From the NCBI GenBank assembly GCA_018826895.1, contig JAHJYA010000067.1, forward strand, positions 62,001 to 126,000: a stretch of 64,000 nt of DNA. The letters run 5' to 3'. Source of the DNA: Gammaproteobacteria bacterium (GTDB lineage Bacteria > Pseudomonadota > Gammaproteobacteria > Pseudomonadales > Pseudomonadaceae). Shown here one piece after another: positions 53,840-63,216 of the stretch (its first letter is position 1; every line of letters starts with the position of its first letter). Made by a program: the position numbers and the translations under genes. The notes under the pieces are model-generated. The model saw only the letters and a list, made by a program, of their open reading frames with translations. It did not search any database and was not told the DNA's origin.

Positions 53840-55645
53840 ATGGGCGATTATTCACAGGACGCCGCCCTATTCCGTGCGGTCTTCGACTCCGCACCGCTGG
53901 GGATGGCGCTGCTCGACCTTGAGGGGCGGCTGCAATACGCCAACCCGGCACTGACACAACAGCTTAAATACGCACCGCATGCCCTGGTCGGGAAGTCCCT
54001 CGTCGAGTTGTTACACCCCCAGGACCAAAGCCCCTACCTACAGGCGCTGGAGCAGGCCAAGCGCCTGCAGAAGGATATCGCCTGCGGCGAAATGCGCGTG
54101 CAGCAGGGGGACGATGATTATCTGTGGTTCCGCCTCAACCTCTGCCCGGTGACCGCAGACGAGAACGCCACCAGCCATTACCTGGCACGCCTGGAACAGC
54201 CGCGCACTAACCAAACTCGGGCCGAGCAGGTCTATCTGCTCAGCTTTGCCCTGGATTACACCGCTGACGGCGTGCTGCTGCTGGATGACCAGCTGTGCAT
54301 CCACTACCTCAACGAAGCCGCTAGCCGCCTGCTGGGGCAAGCCAGGCAGTATTTGCTGGGGCAAGGCATTGGCCAGGCGCTGCCACCCTTGGCCCAGCAC
54401 AGTGACGACGACCTGCGCGAAGTCATCGATATGCAGCGCGTGCTGTCCCTGGAGCTGATCCATCCAGCTGACGCGCGGCACTCCCATGTCTCGGTGCAGT
54501 TCAACCGGTTTCGCTATGACCGCCGTGGATACAGCCTGGTGCTGATTCAGGATGTCACCGAGCAGCAGCGCATGGCGACCACCCTGCGGCACAATGAAAG
54601 CCAGTTCCGCGCCCTGATCGAAAACACCCACGACGCGATCGGTCGCCTTACGCCGGACTTCCGCCTGCTCTATGCCAACCCAGCCCTTGAAGCCCTCAGC
54701 CTGCGCCCACTGAGCCAGGCGCAGGGGCGCTCGGCCCGCTACGCCTTTGGCAATAACTCCCAGATCGATATCTGGGCCAGCATGGTGCAAGCCGTGGCGA
54801 GCAGCGGCACCTCAATGGAGGAAGAGCTGATCCACGGGGTCGATGGACCGCCTGATCAGCAACAGCATTACCTCGTGCAGTTGGTCGCTGAGTACAACAC
54901 CCACGGCGAAGTCGCCAGCGTCCTGTCGCTGGCACGCAATATTACCGATATCCGCAAGGCCGAACGGCGTCTCGCCGAAAGTAACCAGCAATTGCGCGAA
55001 CTGGCCAGCCGCCGCGAATCCACCCGCGAGGAGGAGCGCAAGCTGATTGCCCAGGAAATTCATGACGAGCTGGGTCAGCATCTTACCGCCCTACGCATGG
55101 GCATCTCGATGCTACGCCTGCAGTTCGGCGAGCAGGCCCCTGGCCTGAGCGATAAGGTTGAACACCTCATGGCGGTATGTGATCGAACCATTCAGGTGGT
55201 TCGCTCCATCGCCACCAGCCTACGCCCGGCGGCCCTGAACATGGGTCTGTATCCGGCCCTGGAATGGTTGATTGGCGAATTCCGCCAGCACGCGCAGATC
55301 GCCTGTGAGTTCACCACCCACTGCGACGAGCCAGTGCTGGCCGACGACCAGGCGACACGGGCATTCCGCGTCGTTCAGGAGGCCCTGAATAACGTGGCAC
55401 GGCACTCCGGTGCCAGCCGAGCGGAGGTTAGCCTGGAGCGCCTTGATGACATCTACAAACTGGACATCACCGACAACGGCCGCGGCTTCAATACCGCGTC
55501 AGTCAGCAAGCGTTCGCTGGGTTTGACCGGCATGCGTGAGCGGGGCATCAGCCTGGGAGGCGAGGTCGTCATCTTCAGCTACCCCGGGCAGGGCACCACC
55601 GTGCAGGCCACATTTCCCGTCAGCATGCTGCAGGAGGTCTTGTGA
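53840..55645 (+). CDS. Cytosolic multi-PAS sensor histidine kinase (HisKA_3 type)
   Basis: 601 aa, preceded by a strong AAGGAGGAGG site. Three PAS domains are visible: FDSAPLGMALLDLEGRLQYANPAL (15-40), LDYTADGVLLLDDQLCIHYLNEA (135-160), IENTHDAIGRLTPDFRLLYANPAL (255-280). A coiled linker follows, then HisKA_3 EEERKLIAQEIHDELGQHLTALRMGISM near 395-425 and HATPase DNGRGFNT and LGLTGMRERG. No membrane segment is seen, so it senses an internal signal. It is paired by a 4-nt overlap with the NarL-type regulator. Confidence 0.92.
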   Translation: MGDYSQDAALFRAVFDSAPLGMALLDLEGRLQYANPALTQQLKYAPHALVGKSLVELLHPQDQSPYLQALEQAKRLQKDIACGEMRVQQGDDDYLWFRLNLCPVTADENATSHYLARLEQPRTNQTRAEQVYLLSFALDYTADGVLLLDDQLCIHYLNEAASRLLGQARQYLLGQGIGQALPPLAQHSDDDLREVIDMQRVLSLELIHPADARHSHVSVQFNRFRYDRRGYSLVLIQDVTEQQRMATTLRHNESQFRALIENTHDAIGRLTPDFRLLYANPALEALSLRPLSQAQGRSARYAFGNNSQIDIWASMVQAVASSGTSMEEELIHGVDGPPDQQQHYLVQLVAEYNTHGEVASVLSLARNITDIRKAERRLAESNQQLRELASRRESTREEERKLIAQEIHDELGQHLTALRMGISMLRLQFGEQAPGLSDKVEHLMAVCDRTIQVVRSIATSLRPAALNMGLYPALEWLIGEFRQHAQIACEFTTHCDEPVLADDQATRAFRVVQEALNNVARHSGASRAEVSLERLDDIYKLDITDNGRGFNTASVSKRSLGLTGMRERGISLGGEVVIFSYPGQGTTVQATFPVSMLQEVL

Positions 55646-56271
55646 TACGCGTCCTTATCGCCGACGACCACGCCATCATGCGCGGGGGGCTCAAACAACT
55701 GATCGAGTTCGACAGCCACCTGCAGGTCGTGGCCGAGGCGGAGAACGGTGGGCAGGTGCTCGAACGGCTGCGCGACAAAACGGTCGACCTGCTGTTGCTG
55801 GACATGAGCATGCCTGGCTTGAGCGGTGAAGACCTGATCGCCCGGGTGCATGCCCATCATGCCAAGCTGCCGATTCTGGTGCTGAGCATGCATAACGAAC
55901 CGCAAATCGCGCAGCGCGCACTGCGCGCCGGAGCCAGTGGCTACCTGACCAAAGACCAGAACCCGGAAACTCTACTCGCGGTGATCCACAAGATGGCCGG
56001 CGGTGGGCGCTACCTCGACCCACGCATTGCCGAGCAGTTGGCCTTTTCCAGCACCTCGCCCTCCGAGAATGCCCTGAAGAGTTTGTCGGATCGTGAGTTC
56101 CAGATCCTGCGCATGCTGGCCCAGGGCCTGAGTGTCAACCAGGTGGCCGAGCAACTGGTGATCAGCAACAAAACCGTTAGCACCCATAAAACCCGTCTGA
56201 TGGAAAAGATGGGGTTTGCTTGTAACGCCGACATCATCAAGTACGCCCTGGCCCAGGGGCTGGCAGAGTAG
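55642..56271 (+). CDS. NarL/LuxR-family response regulator
   Basis: 209 aa, GTG start in a GTGA overlap. Receiver: LIADDHAIMRGGLKQL, phospho-Asp in LLLLDMSMPGLSGED near 54, Lys in GYLTKDQNPE near 105. The C-terminal helix-turn-helix is LSDREFQILRMLAQGLSVNQVAEQLVISNKTVSTHKTRLMEKMG. It is the partner of the preceding PAS kinase. The chemosensory operon starts 130 nt downstream, so joint control is possible. Confidence 0.93.
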   Translation: MIRVLIADDHAIMRGGLKQLIEFDSHLQVVAEAENGGQVLERLRDKTVDLLLLDMSMPGLSGEDLIARVHAHHAKLPILVLSMHNEPQIAQRALRAGASGYLTKDQNPETLLAVIHKMAGGGRYLDPRIAEQLAFSSTSPSENALKSLSDREFQILRMLAQGLSVNQVAEQLVISNKTVSTHKTRLMEKMGFACNADIIKYALAQGLAE

Positions 56272-56403: not shown

Positions 56404-57564
56404 ATGAACGTGACAAATCCGGCCCCTGCTTCCATCCCCCTCTGGCTACCCACTGCACTGTCGACTGCCAGCTGCGTGCTACTGCTCTGGCTGGCAGAGC
56501 AGCTACCCTCCAGCTACTGGCTGGCCAGTGCGCTGCTGCCGGGCATCCTGGTCTACCTTTGCCTGCACCGCGCAACCGCCGCCCAAGCGCAAGCCGCGCA
56601 GCAGGCTCATCAGCACGCAGTGCTGGAGGCGCAAGCACTAGAAACCGAGCAGCACGTCGAAGGACTGCCCGACCTCTGCCGCGCCGTCACCCCCGTCTGG
56701 TCGCAACAGATTGATGCGGCCCGCCAGCACACCCAGACCGCTATCGACGCCCTCAGCGAGCGCTTCACCCATCTGGCTGAACGCATCAACACCGCCGTCG
56801 GCACCGGCGCTCAATACGACAATCACACCCTGCTCAACTTGCTGGCCGGCAGTGAGCAGGAGCTGGAAGGCATCGTCAGCCAGCTGCGCCTGGCCCTCAG
56901 CAGTAAAGAAACGCTGCTTGCCGAAGTCGTCAGCCTGAACAGCTTCACCACGCAACTCAGGGCCATGGCCCAGGAAGTCGGCGACGTCGCCAAACAAACC
57001 AACCTGCTGGCGCTCAATGCCGCCATCGAAGCCGCGCGGGCCGGCGAGGCGGGCCGCGGCTTCGCCGTGGTCGCAGATGAGGTGCGCACGCTCTCCACGC
57101 GCTCAGAACAAACCGGCCGGCGTATCGGCGAAACCATCGCAACGGTCAGCGCCGCCATCGAGCACACCCTGCAGGTGTCCAACGAGCACACCAGTCGCGA
57201 CGCCGGCACCCTGGGCAGCGCCAGCCAGGTGATTCGCCAGGTTATCGAAGACTTCCGCACAGGGGTCACCCACCTGGTCGAGCACGGCAACGTCCTGCAG
57301 AGCCAGAACCAGGCCGTCGGCGAGGAAATTTCCGAGGTCCTGGTCGCCCTGCAGTTCCAGGACCGGGTCAGCCAGATGCTCAGCCACATACGCGCCGACA
57401 TCGACAAGCTGGGACTACGCCTGAGCGAGCCGGCGCAGCATATCGATGCCCGCAGCTGGCTGGATGACCTGTCACACACCTATACCACCCCAGAGCAGCA
57501 TGCCATCCACCATGGCCGCGGCACCCCGGCCGCCAGCAGCGCGTCCGACATTACCTTCTTCTGA
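56404..57564 (+). CDS. Receptor-like chemotaxis protein without periplasmic sensor, with QDxxxQ motif
   Basis: 386 aa. Two hydrophobic segments (residues 10-27 and 37-55) form a tight hairpin with no ligand domain. A helical signalling region follows with the conserved receptor tip [33 protein letters not shown] near 200-232. After the hairpin, [11 protein letters not shown] carries D320 and Q324 spaced as in the catalytic QDxxxQ motif of CheZ. It could be an inner-membrane hub that both binds CheA/CheW and dephosphorylates CheY. That is inference. Confidence 0.82.
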
Positions 57565-57575
57565 GGACACCTTTC

Positions 57576-57944
57576 ATGGCCAAGACCATTCTCATCGTCG
57601 ACGACTCCGCCTCAATCCGCCAAGTGGTCGGCATGACCCTGAAAAATGCCGGCTATGAGGTGATCGAGGGCGTCGACGGCAAAGACGCCCTGACCAAGCT
57701 CGACGGGCGCAAAGTTCACCTGATCATCAGCGACGTGAACATGCCGAACATGGACGGCATCACCTTCGTCAAGAACGTCAAGCAGATGCCGGCCTACAAG
57801 TTCACCCCGGTGATCATGCTCACCACAGAGGCCGGTGACGGCAAAAAAGGCGAAGGCCAGGCAGCCGGGGCCAAGGCGTGGGTGGTCAAACCCTTCCAAC
57901 CGGCACAGATGCTGACCGCGGTCTCCAAGTTGATCCTGCCATGA
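57576..57944 (+). CDS. cheY: CheY-like single-domain response regulator
   Basis: 122 aa. Acidic pair IVDDSAS near residue 8, phospho-Asp in LIISDVNMPNMDGITFV near 53, Thr in MLTTEAGDGKK near 83, Lys in AWVVKPFQPAQ near 105. It is the output of the chemosensory operon. No CheZ gene is present in the visible part. Confidence 0.94.
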   Translation: MAKTILIVDDSASIRQVVGMTLKNAGYEVIEGVDGKDALTKLDGRKVHLIISDVNMPNMDGITFVKNVKQMPAYKFTPVIMLTTEAGDGKKGEGQAAGAKAWVVKPFQPAQMLTAVSKLILP

Positions 57945-57954
57945 GGGCACAGCC

Positions 57955-58275
57955 ATGAGCAGTGCCTCTGCAGAAAACCTGTATCGCATTCTCCCCCTGG
58001 AAGGCAGCTTGAGCATCTACAGCGCCACAGAGCACATGGGGCTTTTGCTACAGGTGCTAGCGCCCGATGCCGAAGTGGAGCTGGACCTTTCGGCCATCGA
58101 CGAACTGGACTGCGCCGGCCTGCAATTATTGGTGCTGGCCAAACAGGAAGCCGGCCGTATTGGCTGCGACTTGCGCCTGAGCAACCACAGCCCAGCCGTC
58201 ATAGAGGCCTTTGAGCTGAGCGGGCTTGGCACGTTTTTCGGCGACCCCATCCTGATCAAGCCAGCCAGCGAGTAG
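57955..58275 (+). CDS. STAS-domain protein of the chemosensory operon
   Basis: 106 aa, single STAS domain (LDLSAIDELDCAGLQLLVLAKQEA ... LELSGLGTFFG pattern). STAS proteins bind partners through a conserved Ser/Thr that can be phosphorylated. Here the position is Cys in DELDCAGLQ, so classical anti-sigma-type phosphorylation seems impossible. STAS genes next to cheA occur in several additional chemosensory clusters; the role is unclear. Confidence 0.85.
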   Translation: MSSASAENLYRILPLEGSLSIYSATEHMGLLLQVLAPDAEVELDLSAIDELDCAGLQLLVLAKQEAGRIGCDLRLSNHSPAVIEAFELSGLGTFFGDPILIKPASE

Positions 58276-58280
58276 CGACC

Positions 58281-60464
58281 ATGGACATGGACGAGGTACT
58301 AAAAACCTTTATCGCCGAAAGCCAGGAACTGCTGCTGCAGATGGAGGATGCCCTGCTGCAGTTGGAACACACCCCAGGCGATGCAGACACCATCAATGCG
58401 ATCTTCCGCGCGGCGCACACCATCAAAGGCTCGGCTGGCCTGTTCGGCCTGGACCTGATCGTCGCGTTCACCCATATCGCCGAAAGTGTGCTCGATCGCG
58501 TGCGCAGCAATGAGCTGCAGTTCAATGCCGAACTGACAGCGCTGTTTCTCCAGGTGGGTGATCATCTGGCGCGCCTGATTGCGCTGGTCGATGCAGGCAC
58601 CGACCTCAACACGCTGGAGATCGAGGTAAAGGCCACGCACGAGACACTGAGTGAACAACTCAGTTATTACCTGGCGCCCGCGATGGCCGCCAAACCCGTA
58701 GCCAGCCAGCCCACTCGTATCGAACGTGGCAACGGTTCAGGGCTCAGTGCCGATCATTGGCACCTGTCTCTGCGCTTTGGCCCGGACACCCTGCGCAATG
58801 GCATGGACCCTCTCGGCCTGTTCCGCTACCTGAACACCTTCGGTCGTATCGTCAGCATCGTGCCGCTGCTTGACCGCCTGCCAAGCGCTGCCGAGATGGA
58901 CCCGGAAACCTGCTACCTGGGCTTCGAGATTGCCTTCGCCAGCGACGCCGACAAGGCCACGATTGATGGCACGTTCGAGTTCGTCCGCGAGGACAGCCTG
59001 ATTCGCATTCTGCCGCCCCATAGCAAGTCGGACGAATACCTGGAGCTGATCCGCACGCTGCCCGAAGAAGACATGCGCCTGGGCGAGATCCTGATGCGCT
59101 GCGGCACCCTCACCGCCGCCGAGCTGCAGGAAGTCCTGCTGGCACAGGTTGAGGGCCAGCAACGCGATGAGGCCCAACCCATCGGCCAGGTGCTGATGGA
59201 ACACAGTTTGGTGCAAGCACCGGTGATCGCCGCCGCCCTGCAGAAACAGCAACAAATCAAGGATAACCGCAGCAACGAAAACAGCCTGATCCGCGTGGAT
59301 GCCAACAAGCTCGATAAGCTGATCGACCTGGTCGGCGAATTGATCATCGCCGGTGCCGGTGCACGCATGACCGCGAAAAACTGCGGCCACAGCGAGATGC
59401 TGGAAGCCACCGAACTGCTCTCACGCCTGGTTGAAGAGGTTCGTGACTCCGCCCTACCGCTGCGCATGGTGCAGATCGGCGCGACCTTTAACCGCTTCCA
59501 GCGGGTGGTGCGCGATGTGTCCAAGGAAATCGGCAAGGACATAACCCTGTCGATCAGCGGCGGCGAGACCGAACTGGACAAGAGCGTGGTCGAGCGCATG
59601 GCCGACCCCCTCACCCACCTGGTGCGCAATGCCATGGACCATGGCATTGAATCGCAGGAAACACGCCAGGCGAACGGCAAGCCGGCACAAGGCAATGTGT
59701 GCCTGAACGCCTGCCATGACGGCGGCAGCATCATTATTGAAGTGACCGATGACGGCGGCGGCCTCGACCCCCAGAGGATTCTCGCCAAAGCCCGCGAACG
59801 CGGCTTGGTCAGCGACAGCCAGACGCTGACGGAAAAGGAAATCTTCAACCTGATCTTCGAGCCGGGTTTCTCCACCGCCGAGCAGGTCAGCAACCTCTCT
59901 GGCCGTGGCGTCGGCATGGACGTGGTCAAGCGCAATATCAGCGCCCTGCGCGGCACCATCGAGCTCAGCAGCGCCCTCGGCCAGGGCACCAGTGTGCGCA
60001 TCCGCCTGCCGCTGACCCTGGCAATCATCGACGGCTTTCTGGTCAACGTCGGTCAAGCCGGCTACGTGATCCCGCTGGAGCAGGTCGAAGAATGCATTGA
60101 GCTGTACAGCGACAGCGCTATAACGCGTGGCCACCTGGAACTGCGTGGGCAGATGCTGCCAGTGGTACGCCTGCGCGAACTGTTCGACGACGACAGCACA
60201 CCACCACGCCGTGAAAGCGTGGTGGTGGTGCAACAAGGCGGTCTGCGCGCAGGTCTGGTGGTCGATCAACTGGTCGGCGAATTCCAGACCGTTATCAAGC
60301 CGCTGGGCAAGGTCTTTGCTGCCTGCCGCGTGCTCGGCGGCTTCACCATTCTCGGCGATGGCACAGTCGCCCTGATTCTGGACATCCCCAGGCTACTGAC
60401 CCAGCTCGCCGCACCCCGCAATACCCTGCCCTTTGAAACCAAACAGAGCTACGCCCATGAATGA
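58281..60464 (+). CDS. cheA: Chemotaxis histidine kinase CheA with unusual P2 region
   Basis: 727 aa. P1 HPt domain with phospho-accepting H46 in RAAHTIKGSAG. In place of a recognisable CheY-docking P2, residues about 150-250 hold an alpha/beta domain (WHLSLRFGPDTLRNGMDPLGL). Residues 266-323 contain two MshEN-like 24-residue units (RLGEILMRCGTLTAAELQEV..., PIGQVLMEHSLV...). Then P3 dimerisation (RVDANKLDKLIDLVGELIIAGAG), P4 ATPase (VRNAMDHGIE, DDGGGLDP, GRGVGMDVVK) and CheW-like P5. Confidence 0.93.
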   Translation: MDMDEVLKTFIAESQELLLQMEDALLQLEHTPGDADTINAIFRAAHTIKGSAGLFGLDLIVAFTHIAESVLDRVRSNELQFNAELTALFLQVGDHLARLIALVDAGTDLNTLEIEVKATHETLSEQLSYYLAPAMAAKPVASQPTRIERGNGSGLSADHWHLSLRFGPDTLRNGMDPLGLFRYLNTFGRIVSIVPLLDRLPSAAEMDPETCYLGFEIAFASDADKATIDGTFEFVREDSLIRILPPHSKSDEYLELIRTLPEEDMRLGEILMRCGTLTAAELQEVLLAQVEGQQRDEAQPIGQVLMEHSLVQAPVIAAALQKQQQIKDNRSNENSLIRVDANKLDKLIDLVGELIIAGAGARMTAKNCGHSEMLEATELLSRLVEEVRDSALPLRMVQIGATFNRFQRVVRDVSKEIGKDITLSISGGETELDKSVVERMADPLTHLVRNAMDHGIESQETRQANGKPAQGNVCLNACHDGGSIIIEVTDDGGGLDPQRILAKARERGLVSDSQTLTEKEIFNLIFEPGFSTAEQVSNLSGRGVGMDVVKRNISALRGTIELSSALGQGTSVRIRLPLTLAIIDGFLVNVGQAGYVIPLEQVEECIELYSDSAITRGHLELRGQMLPVVRLRELFDDDSTPPRRESVVVVQQGGLRAGLVVDQLVGEFQTVIKPLGKVFAACRVLGGFTILGDGTVALILDIPRLLTQLAAPRNTLPFETKQSYAHE

Positions 60465-61005
60465 GCTCACCGCCTCCGACGCAAGCGCTCGCGCCAATGC
60501 GCACCTGCAGCGTAACGCAGGGGAACAGCGCAAACAGCAATACCTCAGTTTCATGCTGCATGGCCGCTGCTATGCCCTCGACGGCCTGAGTGTCAGAGAG
60601 ATCATCCAGTACGGCAGGCCGACCAAGGTGCCCATGGTCAGCCCCTGCATTCATGGCGTGATCAACCTGCGTGGCGCCGTGGTTCCGGTGATTGACCTCG
60701 GCCTGCGTTTCGCCTTGGCGAAAACCCAGGTGGACCGCCGCACCTGCATCATCATCGTCGAAGTCAGCGACGCCGAAAGCACGCAGACGCTAGGCATTCT
60801 CGTCGATGCGGTCAGCGAAGTTCTGGAAGTGATGCCCGACGAAATGAGCCCGCCCCCCGCATTTGGCAACCCGATTCGCAGTGATTTCATCCAGGCAATG
60901 GTTCACCAGCAGAATGATTTCATCATCGTACTGAACATCGAAAACGCCCTCGCGGTCGCCGAGATTGCGGGCCTAGCAGACGGTAACAACGCATTGACCG
61001 CCTGA
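60457..61005 (+). CDS. cheW: CheW coupling protein (first copy)
   Basis: 182 aa from the ATG at 60457, overlapping the cheA stop by 8 nt. It couples receptors to CheA. Motifs: FMLHGRCYALDGLSVREIIQYGRPTKVPMV, INLRGAVVPVIDLGLRF, and GILVDAVSEVLEV. It is paired with a second cheW after the MCP gene, which may confer receptor preference. Confidence 0.94.
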   Translation: MNELTASDASARANAHLQRNAGEQRKQQYLSFMLHGRCYALDGLSVREIIQYGRPTKVPMVSPCIHGVINLRGAVVPVIDLGLRFALAKTQVDRRTCIIIVEVSDAESTQTLGILVDAVSEVLEVMPDEMSPPPAFGNPIRSDFIQAMVHQQNDFIIVLNIENALAVAEIAGLADGNNALTA

Positions 61006-61038: not shown

Positions 61039-62685
61039 ATGTTCAAAGATCTGCGTGTGTCAACCAAGCTTGGCTTTGGCTTTGGCACGGTCATCATCCT
61101 GCTCTTGATCGCCTTGACGTTAGGTATCACAAGGATGAGCGCCATCAATGAGAGCAGTGAATTCATCGTCAATGATCGCTATGTGAAAATCCAACAGGCC
61201 ACGGCCATCAAGGAGGAAACGCTGAATCAGGCGCGCTTTGTGCGTGACATCATGCTCCACGACGAAGAGGCGTCGGTTAAGAAAAACCTCGAACTCATCG
61301 CAGCCAGCCGCGATCGTCGGACCAAAATCGCGGAAGAGCTAGATCAATCCGTCACCACACCGCAAGGCCGAGAACTCATGGCGCGCCTCAATGCCACGCG
61401 GGAAACTCTCGGTAATCGCTACGATGAGTTGTTTCAGCTCTTGGACGAGCCAGAGAAAGCCGAAGCCTATCTATTCAGCGAGCTGATTCCCGCCAACAAC
61501 GCGCTACTGGACGCCGCCACAGCACTCGTGGACAACCAGAGCGAGCTGATGGACAAGAGTGCGGAAGAAGCCAACGAACTCTATACAAGCGCTCGCCTGC
61601 AACTCATGATCATTGGTGGCGTAGCCATCTTTATTTCTATCCTGCTGGGCTGGCTGATTACCCGCAGCCTGTTGAAGCAACTGGGCGGCGAACCCGCCTA
61701 TGCCGCCGAGGTGGTGACCCGGATTGCCGAAGGTGATCTGAGCGTGCAAGTGAAGGTCAAGCCCGGTGACACCAGCAGCATGCTGGCCTCCATCCACAAC
61801 ATGTCCACCCGCCTCACGCAAATCATCACCGAGGTACGCGGTTCTGCCGACTCACTGTCCAGCGCCTCCGAGGAGATTTCCGCCACGGCGCAGAGCATGA
61901 GCCAGGCCGCCTCCGAGCAAGCGGCCTCGGTGGAGGAAACCAGCGCCTCAATGGAGCAAATGGCCGCGTCCATCTCGCAGAACACCGAGAACGCCCGCGT
62001 CACCGATGGCATGGCCAGCAAAGCCTCAACCGAAGCGGGCGAAGGGGGTCAGGCAGTCAAAGACACCGTGCGCGCCATGAAAACCATCGCCGACAAAATC
62101 GGCATCGTCGACGACATCGCCTACCAGACCAACCTGCTAGCCCTCAACGCCGCCATCGAAGCCGCCCGGGCTGGCGAACATGGCAAAGGCTTCGCTGTGG
62201 TCGCCGCCGAGGTGCGCAAACTGGCCGAGCGCAGCCAGGTCGCCGCCCAGGAAATCGGTGAGGTGGCCAAGAGCAGCGTGGCCCTGGCCGAACGCGCCGG
62301 CAGCTTGCTCGACGAGATCGTGCCGTCCATTGCCAAGACCTCCGACCTGGTCCAGGAAATTGCCGCCGCCTCGGAAGAGCAAAGCAGCGGGGTCAACCAG
62401 ATCAATACCGCAATGAACCAACTCAGCGAGCTAACCCAGCAGAGTGCTTCGGCCTCTGAAGAGCTGGCCGCGACCTCCGAAGAGATGAGTGGCCAGGCCG
62501 AGCAACTGCAACAACTGATGGAGTTCTTCCAGCTCAGTGGCGGCAGCACCTCAAGCAACAACCAAAAGAGCAAAACACACAGCGGTCGGCCCACTAAACC
62601 GGTGCGTTCCTCACGAACCGGCGATGACCACGCGTCGACGCACATGGCCGGCCTGCCAGCCGGTTATGCACGCTTCCAGGAGTGA
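61039..62685 (+). CDS. Methyl-accepting chemotaxis protein with four-helix-bundle sensor
   Basis: 548 aa. TM1 is at residues 12-31 and TM2 near 191-210; a 4HB_MCP periplasmic domain of about 160 residues lies between. HAMP follows ([30 protein letters not shown]), then the signalling domain with tip [42 protein letters not shown] and Glu/Gln-rich methylation helices ([30 protein letters not shown]). There is no C-terminal CheR-tether pentapeptide. The ligand is unknown. The genes before and after are cheW. Confidence 0.95.
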
Positions 62686-62688
62686 GCC

Positions 62689-63216
62689 ATGAGCGCCGAC
62701 ACACGGCTCCTCCCGAGTGCCACAGCCCCTTCAGGCCAGTACCTGACCTTCACCCTGGCTCAGGAACTGTTTGCCGTTGAGATCCGCGCTGTACGCGAGA
62801 TTATCGAATACGGGCACCTGACCAGCGTGCCGATGCTGCCGCCGAGCATCCTCGGCGTGATCAACCTGCGCGGCGCCGTGGTACCGGTGATCGACCTCGG
62901 CTTGCGCTTCGGCAACTCAGCCACGCTGATCGGGCCGCGCACCTGCATCGTGATACTGGAAGTTGAGCAAAACGGCAGCACTCAGGTGCTCGGCATGGTG
63001 GTCGACGCGGTCAACGAAGTACGCGACCTCTCAGCCGGGGAGATCGAGCCGACGCCCAACTTCGGTGGCCGTATTCGTACCGACTTTATCCTCGGTATGG
63101 GTAAGCTCGATGATCGCCTGGTGGTGATGCTCGACGTTGGCCGGGTGATTTCTGCAGAAGAGATGGTGCTGCTGAATCAGGCTGGGGAGTTGAGCCATGA
63201 CCTCGACTCACGTTGA
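62689..63216 (+). CDS. cheW: CheW coupling protein (second copy)
   Basis: 175 aa. The same signatures as the first copy appear: FTLAQELFAVEIRAVREIIEYGHLTSVPMLP and INLRGAVVPVIDLGLRFG. The two CheW proteins are clearly paralogous but diverged, especially at the N-terminus and in the VNEVRDLSAGEIEPTPNFG segment. It overlaps cheR by 20 nt. Confidence 0.94.
   Translation: MSADTRLLPSATAPSGQYLTFTLAQELFAVEIRAVREIIEYGHLTSVPMLPPSILGVINLRGAVVPVIDLGLRFGNSATLIGPRTCIVILEVEQNGSTQVLGMVVDAVNEVRDLSAGEIEPTPNFGGRIRTDFILGMGKLDDRLVVMLDVGRVISAEEMVLLNQAGELSHDLDSR

Follow-up and report, generated by a model that had tools for sequence, protein, structure and literature searches.

A CheA histidine kinase with an MshEN_N-type unit between P2 and P3 as a plausible direct receptor of c-di-GMP in a Pseudomonas-related bacterium

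The chemosensory gene cluster in the last part of the window (i.e., the whole stretch of 64,000 nucleotides that was analysed) encodes a CheA histidine kinase with two repeats resembling the motif by which MshEN domains bind c-di-GMP. This raises the question of whether a chemotaxis kinase may itself read this messenger. Where c-di-GMP is known to influence chemotaxis, it does so at points surrounding the kinase, by way of adaptors, receptors, the motor or CheY-like proteins. Wang et al. (2016; PMC5013675) named the chemotaxis kinase CheA among the proteins with MshEN in the accessible part of their paper and, consequently, the domain combination is not unprecedented. In that part the CheA-MshEN fusions, which have the same domain combination as the protein studied here, are listed only, without residue-level analysis or a binding test of a CheA, and a search of the open-access literature turned up no experimental account of a CheA that binds c-di-GMP.

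The cluster comprises, in this order, genes for an MCP, CheY, a STAS-domain protein, CheA, CheW, a second MCP, a second CheW, CheR, a CheD-like protein and CheB (Table 1). By analogy with the P. syringae literature, assignment to chemosensory class F8 is suggested. The transmembrane MCP ends in GYARFQE (62650-62685), resembling a C-terminal CheR-tethering pentapeptide, and such a pentapeptide has been described for the receptor of the P. syringae F8 cluster.

Table 1. Features of the chemosensory cluster and of the CheA protein (positions are those of the window).
Feature	Position	Strand	CheA residues	Basis or remark
Methyl-accepting chemotaxis protein (MCPsignal)	56404..57564	+		domain scan
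cheY, single receiver domain	57576..57944	+		domain scan
STAS-domain protein	57955..58275	+		domain scan
cheA, 727 aa histidine kinase	58281..60464	+		translation, domain scan
Hpt (P1)			5-99	H46 in HTIKGSAG
P2-like ferredoxin-fold CheY-docking domain (putative)	58749..59015	+	157-245	AlphaFold2, Foldseek, weak Pfam P2
MshEN_N-type four-helix unit (predicted)	59064..59270	+	262-330	
MshEN motif I	59076..59147	+	266-289	translation; near-perfect consensus
Inter-motif loop, 10 residues	59148..59177	+		length and sequence variable among relatives; 5 in MshE
MshEN motif II	59178..59249	+	300-323	Pro in place of Arg; retains Gly302 and Gln323
P3			335-391	
HATPase			442-579	
CheW-like domain			585-708	
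cheW	60433..61005	+		domain scan
Transmembrane MCP, 4HB sensor domain	61039..62685	+		domain scan
Second cheW	62689..63216	+		domain scan
cheR, then cheD-like ORF and cheB	from 63197			cheR starts here, the rest past the window in L030; CheD by eye

The protein has the intact domains of a CheA histidine kinase in the usual order (Hpt with the phospho-acceptor His, H-kinase_dim, HATPase, CheW-like), and the kinase boxes HLVRNAMDHG, DDGGGL and SGRGVGMDV are intact in the translation. The initial annotation described an alpha/beta stretch ahead of the repeats, saw no usual P2 and placed the repeats where the CheY-docking domain should be. The alpha/beta stretch is indeed there, but it has the fold of a P2: for residues 156-335 AlphaFold2 predicts (pLDDT 82) a beta-alpha-beta-beta-alpha-beta domain followed by helices, and this ferredoxin-like domain lies between P1 and P3 at residues 157-245. 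Foldseek ranks P2 of the Thermotoga CheA (1u0s_A) third for this region (probability 1.00, E 3.3e-3), with other ferredoxin-like folds also matching. The Pfam P2 score, at 13.7-14.3 bits, does not reach the gathering cut-off of 23, and Pfam P2 matches weakly, below threshold, in 31 out of 50 CheA relatives. On the basis of this topology, the 1u0s_A match and the weak Pfam matches in relatives, we rejected replacement of P2 by MshEN; docking of CheY by residues 157-245 is putative. Since P2 is present, the MshEN unit was added between P2 and P3 and not in place of P2, and in the predicted structure it sits in the P2-P3 linker as an additional domain. P2-type proteobacterial CheAs without MshEN (e.g., L013-L017, L209-L228) share the P1-P2-P3-P4-P5 order and a homologous P2, but have a low-complexity linker at this place.

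Motif I reads RLGEILMRCGTLTAAELQEVLLAQ (residues 266-289) and motif II reads PIGQVLMEHSLVQAPVIAAALQKQ (residues 300-323). The only departure of motif I from RLGxxLVxxGxxxxxxLxxxLxxQ is V to M, as had been noted before, and a match of this kind would be expected by chance about 0.001 times per 1.4 million residues (a simple composition estimate). A second, divergent copy beginning at residue 300 is likewise confirmed by the translation. It had been described as lacking the Arg and the Gly: the Arg is Pro300 and the turn Gly is Ser309, in addition to a change of Leu to Ile, but the Gly at the third position (Gly302) is kept, as are Leu320 and Gln323. As motif II retains the key Gly and Gln and has lost, to Pro, only the Arg, the earlier doubt about it appears, from the sequence, weaker than stated.

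The NCBIfam family NF053729 (c-di-GMP_motif, MshE-related) spans exactly residues 266-323 of the window CheA (E 4e-6 to 6e-5), at 22.7-26.5 bits and thus under the curated cut-off of 38. A scan with Pfam MshEN (PF05157) did not report the window CheA. Among aligned CheA relatives, NF053729 matches all 50 (best E 2.6e-13), and several CheAs of other genera score above the cut-off (48.8 bits in G264, 45.1 in G373, 52.3 in G209, 45.2 and others), which settles the homology of the window CheA to MshEN. Aligned by hhalign with MshEN units from further proteins encoded in related genomes (pilus/secretion ATPases for the most part), the profile of the CheA unit gave a probability of 98.2% (E 2.8e-14), and the P2 control 0.4%. 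A search of PDB sequences with the CheA profile returned PilF first (E 2.9e-20; the best stretch, 293-360, is GSPII-C), followed by PilB and MshE (5htl). The AlphaFold2 model of the unit (pLDDT 85.7, pTM 0.72) has the four-helix MshEN_N fold. Its sole confident Foldseek matches are c-di-GMP-bound structures of PilF GSPII-B (probabilities 0.98, 0.98 and 0.93), although the E-values are weak (0.44-0.98), and it deviates from 8pkz by an rmsd of 1.9 Å over 61 columns. The MshEN_C alpha/beta subdomain is absent, motif II leading straight into the P3 region, and MshEN_N by itself binds c-di-GMP according to the literature. Judged from sequence and model, motifs I and II together are a real MshEN_N-type four-helix unit. 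A DEP domain, to which an overlapping but weak Pfam match pointed (15.8-18.1 bits against a cut-off of 32.7; the window protein only, 1 out of 50 relatives), was rejected. Pfam DUF4388 weakly matches around motif I in 39 out of 50 relatives (59064-59270), hinting that the MshEN-like hairpin is possibly common to DUF4388.

Residues that contact the ligand in MshE are strongly conserved. Among 80 CheA relatives, picked by similarity and therefore a somewhat biased set, the equivalents of MshE G11, L29, Q32, G40 and Q61 are invariant, and those of L25 (79), L58 (78) and R9 (74) nearly so; the L39 equivalent is Ile or Leu in 79 and that of L54 is Val, Ile, Met or Leu, while surface positions adjoining the ligand sites vary freely. 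The exception is the R38 equivalent at position 1 of motif II, where 62 of these proteins have Pro and only 4 have Arg. A set of 46 CheAs drawn more evenly across the class gave the same residues at Q32 (41), Q61 (44), G11 (45) and G40 (43), with Pro in 22 and Arg in 9 at the R38 equivalent. Among Pseudomonas orthologues pN/pS is 0.12 for the MshEN unit, 0.11 for P2 and 0.65 for the P1-P2 linker; the unit is under strong purifying selection. The CheA-MshEN combination is real and probably functional.

CheAs with both P2 and the MshEN unit were found in gamma- and betaproteobacteria, i.e., in Pseudomonas, Methylobacter (methanotrophs), Gallionella/Sideroxydans, Aquabacterium, Rhizobacter, Methylovorus and others. 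A shorter form occurs in CheAs of another class of the same phylum, where the Gln of motif I is mostly missing (in 12 out of 16 members of clade L163-L178). In this clade the two motifs are almost fused and the motif II Gln is invariant. On a tree of P2 and the kinase core, built without the columns of the MshEN unit and with its root not fixed, presence of the unit is clustered, yet several changes are needed. Several Pseudomonas CheAs (L012, L024, L025, L013, L014, L239) have a decayed unit or none, and since they kept the kinase, the unit is dispensable there. L012, L024, L025, L110, L230 and L239 (Pseudomonas/Stutzerimonas and others) hold recognisable decaying remnants or none, and some of these CheAs accompany a second CheA with an intact one in the same genome (G006, G008, G578). 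We read this distribution as that of an old unit that was lost repeatedly, although the unrooted tree also allows gains.

How does the unit compare with MshEN and GSPII domains of known behaviour? With the N-terminal MshEN of V. cholerae MshE (5htl; PMC5013675), it has in common two 24-residue motifs (the second divergent in CheA), the predicted four-helix unit and the Gly, Gln and hydrophobic positions; it differs in its longer loop, the Pro that opens motif II, the lack of MshEN_C and its host, a CheA instead of a secretion ATPase. For MshE the same source reports that the hydrophobic contacts and G11 are most important, and that the charged residues tested changed the affinity at most fivefold. 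The Gln pair of MshEN has documented hydrogen bonds to ribose and phosphate. The best solved sequence match of the CheA unit is GSPII-C of Thermus thermophilus PilF (PMC11731258), which has RLG.../PLG... motif starts, the Pro and a longer loop in common with it, but also carries a third motif and belongs to a traffic ATPase instead of a kinase. This Pro is the only departure of GSPII-C from the motif, and GSPII-C binds c-di-GMP with a KD of ~0.3-0.5 µM (PMC11731258). GSPII-B, whose ligand-bound structures the CheA model matches, has Lys and Leu where the motif has Arg and binds at 6 nM; these replacements accompany higher affinity (PMC11731258), and a change of the motif II Leu to Ile costs 2.4-fold in binding (PMC12002112). 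The motif sequence by itself is insufficient for binding: with helix 1 N-capped and packed, as in GSPII-A of PilF, binding may fail even for a perfect pair of motifs, and a rebuilt GSPII-A construct no longer bound with Ser at position 1 of motif II (PMC12002112).

That this CheA is directly tuned by c-di-GMP is plausible from its sequence. Our preferred explanation, to which we assign a probability of about 0.6, is that it carries an MshEN_N-type c-di-GMP receptor unit and that the ligand alters phosphoryl flow to CheY. Binding itself appears likely from sequence and model; an effect on kinase output is about as likely as not. One c-di-GMP would most likely be held between the two helical hairpins, with R266, L282, L286, I301 and Q289 around one guanine, L267, I316, L320, Pro300 and Q323 around the other, and the backbone NH groups of G268 and G302 in contact with the ligand. 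The ligand would close and stiffen the unit by locking the two hairpins, and the closed unit may shift the hold and reach of P1/P2 relative to the P4 kinase core and CheY. Such a change of reach is suggested by analogy with PilF GSPII-B, where, on binding of c-di-GMP, the first turn of helix 1 comes unwound and the adjoining subdomain takes another orientation (PMC11731258). Phosphoryl flow to CheY would thereby become c-di-GMP-dependent; our guess is that output is damped at high c-di-GMP.

The unit might, however, have lost nucleotide binding and serve a structural or docking purpose, keeping P2 at a distance from P3 or holding a partner protein, e.g., the STAS protein. Domains that retain this fold but do not bind c-di-GMP are documented (GspE of Xanthomonas, PilF GSPII-A), the window CheA has Pro for Arg and Ser for the turn Gly in motif II and scores under the NF053729 cut-off, and in the allied clade the fold persists in the absence of the Gln of motif I. 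We nevertheless consider this rather unlikely: none of the 80 relatives departs from the two Gln and the two RLG-type Gly, whereas their neighbours vary, the hydrophobic stacking positions are kept, and GSPII-C tolerates Pro at the same place. Against our preferred explanation stand, in addition to the low NF053729 score, the Pfam MshEN miss and the weak Foldseek E-values, the failure of even a perfect motif pair to bind in the setting of GSPII-A and the effect of Ser at position 1, the three motifs of GSPII-C, which allow more than one binding pair, the 12 out of 16 CheAs of clade L163-L178 that keep the unit without the motif I Gln, and the several Pseudomonas CheAs that lost it yet keep the kinase.

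Binding could also be near-constitutive, c-di-GMP then carrying no varying signal but helping, as a structural cofactor, to pack the array or to bind a partner. The 6 nM affinity of GSPII-B, for which its authors raise the cofactor option, and the higher affinity that hydrophobic residues at position 1 conferred on it (PMC11731258) fit this idea. It seems improbable given that the KD of the Pro-sharing GSPII-C lies inside reported cellular ranges (PMC11731258) and that repeated loss in close relatives speaks against an essential structural role. An alpha-helical linker that resembles the motif by chance would explain the sub-threshold match of the single sequence and the overlapping DEP match; we rejected it as extremely improbable in view of the hhalign and PDB profile searches, the NF053729 matches in all 50 relatives and the predicted fold.

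The closest named relative of the organism is Pseudomonas cuatrocienegasensis (97-99% identity over the compared regions). The genome that contains the window encodes about 40 GGDEF domains. A simple regex search found diguanylate cyclase or phosphodiesterase genes beside cheA at only two of 80 loci (L075, L085) and, therefore, no consistent neighbourhood link. In this 88%-complete genome NF053729 matches (E up to 0.01) no protein but the window CheA, which is sub-cut-off; three other proteins (G000, L001-L003) match PF05157 but not NF053729 at this E-value. Directly upstream of the cluster lies a pair of a PAS-rich HisKA_3 histidine kinase and a LuxR-type response regulator (53840-56271), and just past the window a large two-partner-secretion-like pair, in which an ORF resembling an outer-membrane transporter accompanies one of 1455 aa resembling a filamentous adhesin (L030:11766-17946).

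For the family as a whole we tentatively propose, as a possibility slightly short of even, that the CheAs of a large gamma- and betaproteobacterial subfamily bind c-di-GMP directly by means of a Pro-type MshEN unit, that the messenger thereby gates CheY phosphotransfer, and that several Pseudomonas lineages discarded this route. The subfamily is wide, its small domains suit direct tests, and close natural variants without the MshEN unit provide controls. If true, this route would differ from those by PilZ adaptors, PilZ chemoreceptors and CheY-like proteins that bind c-di-GMP, and a c-di-GMP-reading kinase would join the messenger of sessile and motile life and the chemosensory array in one molecule.
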